Below the pieces are notes generated by a model. It saw nothing but the letters and a program-made list of their open reading frames with translations. It was not told the DNA's origin and did not search any database. 64,000 bases of DNA, taken from the NCBI RefSeq assembly GCF_003605575.1, contig NZ_QKNY01000018.1, positions 372,001 to 436,000 on the forward strand, written 5' to 3'. This document shows, one piece after another, positions 11,753 through 60,532 of the stretch. Origin of the DNA: Halonotius aquaticus (GTDB lineage: Archaea > Halobacteriota > Halobacteria > Halobacteriales > Haloferacaceae). The position numbers were made by a program, and so were the translations under genes. Within the stretch, counting starts at the first letter, position 1, and each line of letters starts with the position of its first letter.

Positions 11753-12082
11753 TCAGTTGTAGTCCCGCCAGCGATACCCACATTCCTTGCACTTAAAAAA
11801 GCGCGTCGGCGGTTCGTCGGCCGCGCCGGTCTGTTTGATCGTATACCACGCTTCACCGTGGCCGCACTCCTCGCATGTCACATCGTCAGCGGTCGGTTTC
11901 CCCTCGAACTGATCGTTTTCCTCGGTTTCGATGAGTTCGTCGCCACTCTGCTCAGTCGTTGAGACGAAGGCGTCGGCGCGGTCAGCGTCGCGGTCGGCGG
12001 TCGCCCCACAGTCATCGTTGGTACAGACCATCTCACCGTCTTGGGAGACCATCATTGTCCCACACTCGTCGCAGAACTGCAT
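11753..12082 (-). CDS. tfs: Transcription factor S (TFS), RNA-cleavage factor
   Basis: A 109-residue protein with two zinc ribbons: N-terminal Cys4-x2-Cys7 and Cys20-x4-Cys25, and C-terminal VTCEECGHGEAWY ... FFKCKECGYRWRDYN. The C-terminal ribbon carries the acidic DE pair (AADEPPT) that TFIIS/TFS insert into the RNA polymerase active site to trigger transcript cleavage, so it should be active. Length and layout match archaeal TFS (RpoM-like). A TTTAA element on the minus strand at 12104-12108 gives a leaderless promoter about 22-26 bp upstream. It transcribes toward the antiporter gene. Confidence 0.92.
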   Translation of the reverse strand: MQFCDECGTMMVSQDGEMVCTNDDCGATADRDADRADAFVSTTEQSGDELIETEENDQFEGKPTADDVTCEECGHGEAWYTIKQTGAADEPPTRFFKCKECGYRWRDYN

Positions 12083-59438: not shown

Positions 59439-59996
59439 TCAACAGTCACACCCGCTCGCTTCGCTGGCGTCCGCGTCGTCGAAAAACGACGCAATATTCG
59501 CTGGGACCCCTTCAAAAGCTTTCTTGCGGGTGGTGTCCGATGGCGACTGCTCAGGAACCGCAGCCCGCACTAGTGCTGCAACAAGGAACTCGACCGGCGG
59601 AGTCGTATACTCGTCACCTCGGTAGTGCCAGAGCCGACAGTCGATTTCGCCCGGACACGCACAGAGTTCGCCACACGATTCGCAGTTGTTTTCGCGGTAG
59701 TCCGGTTGAATATCGCGCCCGTTGATACGGATCGTCGGCGATACGGCCAACTGCGTCGCTTTCGCTGCCGCCAGCGTATCGACATGGATATCGCGCACAA
59801 CAACGCTGACAGCCAGTGGTTCGAGGATCGGTTCAATCCGTGTGAGTGCTGTTTCGAGTGCCTGTTCGGTTCCAACACATCGCTCGCAGGCCTCGTTGTC
59901 GAGGTAGAGGAAATCGACGGTGACTGTCCGCTGTGTATACTCCGTTGCCGGCGTTTCGACAACTGAAACAGCCGTGCTGTCTGGGAAGGTTTGCAT
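59439..59996 (-). CDS. Cysteine-rich DUF2703-type protein
   Basis: A 185-residue protein with thioredoxin-fold layout: VTVDFLYLDNEACERCVGTEQ (Cys37-x2-Cys40), a long helix, then AVSPTIRINGRDIQP (cis-Pro-like SPT). A second cluster follows at residues 105-120 (Cys105, 108, 112, 114, 120 in NNCESCGELCACPGEIDC) and the end is GCDC (Cys183, Cys185). Nine cysteines in all suggest metal or metalloid binding or thiol chemistry. It is divergent from an HxlR regulator that also has clustered cysteines. ATG 59996 with TATA-like GTATATGC (minus, about 60023-60030). Function unknown. Confidence 0.75.
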   Translation of the reverse strand: MQTFPDSTAVSVVETPATEYTQRTVTVDFLYLDNEACERCVGTEQALETALTRIEPILEPLAVSVVVRDIHVDTLAAAKATQLAVSPTIRINGRDIQPDYRENNCESCGELCACPGEIDCRLWHYRGDEYTTPPVEFLVAALVRAAVPEQSPSDTTRKKAFEGVPANIASFFDDADASEASGCDC

Positions 59997-60022
59997 TGTA
60001 GTGGCCACTACGACCGCCCGGC

Positions 60023-60030
60023 GCATATAC
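60023..60030 (-). promoter_or_regulatory. TATA-like box of the DUF2703 gene
   Basis: Minus-strand GTATATGC 27-34 bp before the ATG at 59996. The imperfect dyad TGTTCAGTTAGTAAACA (60031-60047) abuts it on the upstream side. Confidence 0.45.
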
Positions 60031-60054
60031 TGTTCAGTTAGTAAACACGAACCG

Positions 60055-60072
60055 GGTTTCCGTACCGAAACC
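60055..60072. promoter_or_regulatory. 18-bp palindrome, candidate HxlR operator
   Basis: GGTTTCCGTACCGAAACC is symmetric around its GTAC centre with a single mismatched pair (C/C). It lies midway in the 137-bp region between the divergent DUF2703 and HxlR genes, 25-29 bp beyond each TATA box. Dimeric winged-helix regulators of the HxlR family bind such sites. Confidence 0.55.
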
Positions 60073-60102
60073 GCCCGCCCGGCCGCACGGGGACGACGAA
60101 CG

Positions 60103-60108
60103 TATATA
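60103..60108 (+). promoter_or_regulatory. TATA box of the HxlR gene
   Basis: TATATA 26-31 bp before ATG 60134 and no Shine-Dalgarno, so the transcript is probably leaderless. Confidence 0.5.
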
Positions 60109-60133
60109 TCGCTACAGCGGCTACGCGTGGTGT

Positions 60134-60532
60134 ATGAGTGAGCACGACGAATGGCAAGCCACGTGGCACGGCTTGCACGATATCCTGGGGCCGAAGTGGA
60201 CGTTTCACATCCTTCGCGTCCTCTCCGAGGAGCCCCACGGGTTCAACGCCATTCGGGACAGTCTGAATGGTCTGACCGCGCCGATCCTCTCCCAGCGGCT
60301 CAAAGAGCTTCGCTGCCATGGCCTCGTTGAGCGAACGGTCGAAGCGACGACACCGCCGACCACGATCTATTCGCTCACCCGAACGGGCACTGAAATCGCT
60401 ACGCGGCTCCAGGAACTGGAGTCGCTTGTCGAAATCAACGAGCAGCCGACGCGAGACTGCTCGGCCGAGACGACTGACTGCCGGTCGGAAGCACTTGCCG
60501 ACGGCTGCGTTACGGCAGCGAATCAGTGTTGA
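60134..60532 (+). CDS. HxlR-family winged-helix regulator with cysteine tail
   Basis: A 132-residue protein. Residues 12-95 are the HxlR winged helix: LGPKWTFHILRVLSEEPHGFNAIRDSLNGLTAPILSQRLKELRCHGLVERTV ... TIYSLTRTGTEI. Cys61 lies in the recognition region. The C-terminal ~25 residues hold four more cysteines (109, 116, 125, 132), an unusual tail that could sense oxidants, reactive electrophiles or metals. Divergent from the DUF2703 gene, with shared palindrome between. It lies 13 bp from the convergent helicase stop. Confidence 0.85.
   Translation: MSEHDEWQATWHGLHDILGPKWTFHILRVLSEEPHGFNAIRDSLNGLTAPILSQRLKELRCHGLVERTVEATTPPTTIYSLTRTGTEIATRLQELESLVEINEQPTRDCSAETTDCRSEALADGCVTAANQC

Follow-up and report, generated by a model that had tools for sequence, protein, structure and literature searches.

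The divergent DUF2703–HxlR gene pair of Halonotius aquaticus probably constitutes a two-gene response module for soft metals or metalloids, made up of a predicted thiol-based HxlR sensor and a predicted thiol-rich effector. The pair is one version of a wider and seemingly undescribed module. We propose that this module combines a common sensor type with interchangeable thiol-rich effectors.

The gene pair and its cysteines

A DUF2703 thioredoxin-like gene and an HxlR regulator gene lie divergently in the window, the whole stretch of 64 000 nt analysed here. The pair is real, and the coordinates, cysteine counts and cysteine positions given for it in a preliminary description of this DNA all match. 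The features of the locus are as follows.

59439–60026, minus strand: DUF2703 ORF in its longest form, 195 aa (Pfam PF10865)
59439–59996, minus strand: DUF2703 thioredoxin-like effector gene with the corrected, most likely start, 185 aa, beginning at Met11 of the 195 aa ORF
60024–60029, minus strand: TATA-like element TATATG of the putative DUF2703 promoter, ~31 nt upstream of the Met11 codon
60055–60072, no strand: candidate operator GGTTTC-CGTACC-GAAACC, intergenic, between the DUF2703 and HxlR genes
60103–60109, plus strand: TATA-like element TATATAT of the putative HxlR promoter, ~28 nt upstream of the HxlR ATG
60134–60532, plus strand: gene of the HxlR-family winged-helix regulator, 132 aa (PF01638)

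The window genes around the pair encode LigA, an alpha/beta hydrolase and a helicase, and are unrelated to it; a search of phage records for a phage origin of the locus gave no match. Homologues of the effector are found in Halonotius terrestris and H. roseus at 86–88 % identity.

The effector matches PF10865 with 87.8 bits (E 7.6e-25; gathering cut-off 23.6) and has the family's CxxC and CR cysteines. Its nine cysteines, numbered on the 195 aa ORF, form the CxxC motif (C47xxC50), a cluster of five (C115, C118, C122, C124 and C130) and the C-terminal CDC (C193-D-C195), all of which had been described beforehand. Homologues begin at a methionine equivalent to Met11, and the upstream-most ATG (60026) sits inside the TATATG of the TATA-like element; both points make 59996 the most likely start of the gene, in place of 60026. 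An ATATA or TTATA element is kept at the DUF2703 promoter position in most relatives, and the HxlR-promoter element is conserved as ACGTATAT in close relatives. We infer that TATATG and TATATAT function as promoter elements.

The effector is predicted to adopt a thioredoxin-like fold, with modest structure-match scores. The core of the AlphaFold2 model is thioredoxin-like, with low confidence in the cysteine-bearing loop and the tail. The top Foldseek matches were thioredoxins and PDI domains, with a probability of about 1 but E values of 0.01–0.05, and VIA gave Z scores of up to 8.2 for Trx/PDI domains over 83–91 residues. This is the fold that had been proposed from the sequence, in line with the published classification of DUF2703 as thioredoxin-like, which also reports fusions with ArsD (PMC3091736). 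A search for sequence relatives of DUF2703 in the PDB found none that were meaningful. KaiB, which stood high in the fold list, shares only the common thioredoxin-like arrangement and has no functional meaning here.

The regulator scores 67.7 bits against PF01638, above the Pfam gathering score, and has the wHTH fold. As previously noted, it has one cysteine at the recognition helix (C61) and four in the tail (C109, C116, C125 and C132). In the structural model the recognition helix spans residues 49–61, with Cys61 as its last residue, and no structure is predicted for the tail in the monomer. The nearest solved structures are QsrR, YodB, HypR and HxlR, the first three of which are the top folds.

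Cysteine makes up 9 of 185 residues in the effector (binomial P 2.4e-5) and 5 of 132 in the regulator (P 0.005) relative to a rate of 0.81 %, a background drawn solely from the 53 called genes of the window with a simple home-made gene caller whose score slightly penalises cysteine. The two proteins rank second and third in the window for cysteine content. The richest called gene (11753–12082, minus strand) encodes an ordinary TFS/RPB9-type zinc ribbon protein.

Conservation is a stronger argument than enrichment. Lack of cysteine conservation had been named beforehand as one outcome that would count against a shared role, and this is not what the alignments show: cysteines are conserved in both partners across distant haloarchaea. 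In the effector, C47, C50 and C130 occur in 13 of 13 haloarchaeal homologues and the remaining cysteine columns in 10–12 of 13; the same three are invariant in all 15 aligned sequences when two further archaeal homologues from the phylum are added. For the regulator, all 15 homologues have C61, C109 and C116, and 14 of the 15 have C125 and C132, whilst the spacing of the tail cysteines is variable outside the DUF2703-linked subgroup.

Recurrence of the pairing and a candidate operator

We surveyed 391 Halobacteria genomes for DUF2703 matches over the Pfam cut-off and found the family in 17. The divergent neighbour was a C61-type homologue of the window HxlR in 14 of these 17 genomes, which belong to several families. 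The three unpaired copies comprise a truncated one near a contig end that adjoins a transposon-like gene (G148), one that adjoins ArsR and ArsP genes (G103) and one that adjoins ABC-transporter and, as read by eye, copper-type genes (G286). The HxlR protein as query gave matches in 48 genomes, about 30 of them without DUF2703. Additionally, a 62 aa DUF2703 remnant, probably a decayed copy, lies near a bile acid:sodium symporter family gene on Haloarcula marismortui pNG700 (locus L144, 5959–6147).

The candidate operator GGTTTC-N6-GAAACC (60055–60072) is positioned between the two TATA-like elements, ~26 bp upstream of that of the DUF2703 gene. The perfect palindrome is the sole copy in its own genome, which has 12 further sites with one mismatch. 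With up to one mismatch, the palindrome was found at 17 loci, no more than 250 bp upstream of a C61-type HxlR gene, an enrichment of about 220-fold compared with elsewhere in the same loci. The DUF2703-linked relatives outside Halonotius mostly have variants with 1–3 mismatches, and the Rdx operons described below have a two-mismatch palindrome upstream of the Rdx gene. Another candidate operator, the 14 bp palindrome GTAGTGGCCACTAC just upstream of Met11, was rejected as it is unconserved in relatives, unlike GGTTTC-N6-GAAACC.

Other cysteine-rich partners of the same regulator type

About 25 other haloarchaea have the same type of HxlR with a different cysteine-rich partner, either a mini-protein or an Rdx protein. 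Cys61 is present in 39 of 44 HxlR sequences compared, all 39 of which have 3–6 tail cysteines, and the remaining five relatives have neither Cys61 nor the cysteine tail. A cysteine-rich partner is encoded beside 39/39 of the former and 0/5 of the latter, although these counts are not independent, the HxlR sequences being related by descent. The 39 partners comprise 15 DUF2703 proteins, 20 mini-proteins and four Rdx proteins. A soft metal, metalloid or reactive thiol stimulus shared by both partners, as originally suggested for the H. aquaticus pair, is supported both by the conservation of the cysteines and by this co-occurrence of Cys61 and the tail with a cysteine-rich neighbour. The loci with other partners are listed below.

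L102–L105, L108–L112, L114, L116–L122, L124, L126 and L130: mini-ORFs upstream of HxlR (for example, L104 at 6519, plus strand; L108 at 5650, minus strand; L126 at 5693, minus strand)
L106, 5156–5749: Rdx locus
L107, 5191–5784: Rdx locus
L113, 5273–5875: Rdx locus
L115, 5155–5748: Rdx locus

The mini-protein partners are encoded at 20 loci by unannotated, divergent mini-ORFs of 27–78 aa with 8–17 cysteines, such as MSDDCCVTDTDCCIDTDQIVVCCCGSGCC at L104. A blind scan for cysteine-rich mini-ORFs over 345 kb of these loci gave 20 matches, 19 of which fall in the ~300 bp that precede a C61-type HxlR gene. The mini-ORFs of L102 and L108 differ at 2, 1 and 10 sites at codon positions 1, 2 and 3, respectively, and all cysteines are kept in the compared pairs whilst other residues change. 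This concentration of differences at the third position, together with the retention of cysteines, supports the view that the mini-ORFs are coding. None of the mini-proteins scanned had a Pfam or NCBIfam match; a weak hit of one mini-protein to a TOMM peptide-toxin family (NCBIfam, 16.8 bits against a cut-off of 35) was dismissed as an artefact of cysteine runs. Several mini-protein loci adjoin a cation diffusion facilitator (CDF) gene, and several are situated between genes for a flavin oxidoreductase (FMN, old-yellow-enzyme type) and a thiolase.

At the Rdx loci, the gene order is Rdx (SelW-like, with a cysteine-rich end), a cysteine-containing protein of 90–93 aa that belongs to no known family, and HxlR. 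Three of the four are within ars clusters, and L115 stands alone near a CDF-like gene. In Halorubrum lacusprofundi and Halorussus limi, the ars clusters that contain Rdx–HxlR genes also encode ACR3, ArsR, ArsD, ArsA and ‘halo-CC-star’ proteins, with ArsM too in H. limi.

Partner types cluster in the HxlR tree, which has many open forks, and the number of effector swaps is consequently unsure. One DUF2703-linked regulator (G322) falls within the mini-protein group on a long, unsure branch. HIT and cation-efflux genes adjoin its locus just as they do the mini-protein locus L104, which suggests that the effector may have been swapped at one site.

Candidate ligand, mechanism and related systems

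The genomic context of DUF2703 repeatedly involves arsenic. In bacteria, the family occurs in plasmid ars operons of Peptoclostridium (ArsR-DUF2703-ACR3-ArsC) and Bacillaceae (DUF2703-ArsR-ArsI-ArsR-transporter-ArsC), and the DUF2703 protein of Rhodococcus aetherivorans BCP1 has a CxxC motif, an ars context and arsenate [As(V)]-induced expression (PMC6514093). Other archaea of the same phylum have DUF2703 in ArsP/ACR3/ArsR-type clusters. Five of the 17 haloarchaeal DUF2703 genes (G094, G103, G106, G111 and G279) are within about 5 kb of ArsP_1, several of them also with genes for ArsR, Thioredoxin_3, an SBF-family transporter or an ArsC-type phosphatase. The ars genes around several copies suggest a switch for arsenic-like or other soft metals, and the likeliest ligand of the DUF2703 version would be As(III) or an organoarsenical (or Sb(III)). 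Against an arsenic ligand, we count that ars adjacency is seen in only 5/17 haloarchaeal loci and that no ars transporter, reductase or ArsR gene adjoins the pair in the window. The H. aquaticus genome has one ArsP, away from the locus, and only weak ACR3-like matches, none above the cut-off. Across genomes, ArsP is present in 13/17 DUF2703 carriers and 10/20 controls, which is unconvincing as support; only proximity is convincing. The ligand may differ between versions, or be something other than arsenic, since the mini-protein loci adjoin CDF or flavin oxidoreductase and thiolase genes.

We hypothesize that an HxlR-type dimer binds GGTTTC-N6-GAAACC between the divergent promoters, as its conservation suggests, and that Cys61 and tail cysteines, possibly those of the partner subunit, make a thiolate site for a soft ligand. 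Ligand binding would alter DNA binding by HxlR and raise expression of the cysteine-rich partner. As regards the presumed direction of control, activation fits better than simple occlusion because the operator lies upstream of the DUF2703 TATA element. Given its thioredoxin fold with CxxC, cysteine cluster and cysteine tail, the likely task of the DUF2703 protein is to bind the ion, to reduce the ion's disulfide adducts, or both, much as an ArsD-like chaperone or a thioredoxin that serves ArsC would do. Elsewhere in haloarchaea, this type of regulator would control metallothionein-like mini-proteins or the Rdx protein.

Three other explanations were weighed. Sensing of a transition or heavy metal (Zn, Cd, Cu, Ag or Hg), with the mini-proteins as metallothioneins and DUF2703 as a metal buffer, seems unlikely. 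The mini-proteins, with up to 17 cysteines, are metallothionein-like in size and cysteine content, a CDF gene lies next to several of their loci and to the DUF2703 locus of G322, and the G286 copy is near a copper-type P-ATPase-like gene as read by eye; however, the CDF neighbour is accompanied by a conserved HIT gene and could owe its position to synteny alone, and the DUF2703 context is of the arsenic type in bacteria, in other archaea of the phylum and in five haloarchaea. It is rather improbable that the regulator is a DUF24/HxlR-type redox or electrophile switch (for quinone, aldehyde, hypochlorite or polysulfide) acting over a thioredoxin-like repair protein. An FMN oxidoreductase of the old-yellow-enzyme type adjoins several mini-protein loci, and the nearest solved relatives of the regulator, QsrR, YodB, HypR and HxlR, do sense electrophiles or oxidants, through a conserved N-terminal sensing cysteine (Cys11 in HxlR; PMC7835342). 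This cysteine is missing from the window HxlR, which has none before C61, and C61 is the single cysteine of the DNA-binding domain in most or nearly all of the 39 homologues; moreover, a tail of 3–6 cysteines and metallothionein-like partners suit ion binding over a two-thiol switch.

The already disfavoured idea that a cysteine-rich DUF2703 gene and an HxlR gene are adjacent by chance, without a functional link, is very improbable: some genomes have HxlR without DUF2703 or the reverse, and the window neighbours are unrelated, but the divergent pairing recurs in 14/17 genomes from several families, with a conserved intergenic palindrome and co-conserved cysteines. Returning to the metal(loid) response module, we give an even chance to the broader proposition that the Cys61/Cys-tail HxlR proteins are a new archaeal class of metal(loid) sensor that falls in none of the known metalloregulator families, with GGTTTC-N6-GAAACC as operator and swappable thiol-rich effectors that include a previously unannotated haloarchaeal metallothionein family. 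If this is true, HxlR would join the families that sense soft metals, DUF2703 would acquire a role in metal(loid) handling that can be put to the test, and metallothionein-like haloarchaeal mini-proteins outside known families, easily overlooked by annotation at only 27–78 aa, would come to light. The operator, regulator and effector are compact, making the hypothesis testable in a laboratory haloarchaeon. A literature search with limited coverage of subscription journals gave nothing on HxlR proteins that sense metals, nor on the mini-proteins, and their novelty is accordingly provisional.

ArsR/SmtB metalloregulators of the CmtR type have thiolate sites at the recognition helix and the C-terminus. 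The window regulator would work similarly, with soft-metal thiolates near the helix and in the tail, yet it has an HxlR fold and belongs to a different family. It shares fold and sequence family with the thiol sensors YodB, QsrR, HypR and HxlR, and differs from them in having Cys61 at the recognition helix and a cysteine-rich tail instead. The mini-proteins of the sister loci resemble metallothioneins in size and cysteine content and may bind metal, whereas their genes are divergent from an HxlR gene and those scanned match no family. DUF2703 with CxxC is common to the H. aquaticus locus and the ars operons of R. aetherivorans BCP1 and the Peptoclostridium plasmid; in those operons the regulator is ArsR/SmtB, whilst Halonotius has a Cys-tailed HxlR and no adjacent transporter or reductase.

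Finally, the As(III) metallochaperone/repressor ArsD (PF06953), like DUF2703, has a thioredoxin-like fold, vicinal and C-terminal cysteines and an ars context. The families and cysteine arrangements differ, and the H. aquaticus locus has no ArsA partner. ArsD is fused to DUF2703 at L139 (5410–6198, minus strand), whose ars cluster, from an archaeon of the same phylum, also has genes for ArsR, an ArsC-like protein and ArsP. At L134 (5855–7258), from the same phylum but outside Halobacteria, DUF2703 is fused in-frame to a long membrane-like domain at its C-terminal side, and the cluster also has an ArsP permease and an ACR3-like gene.
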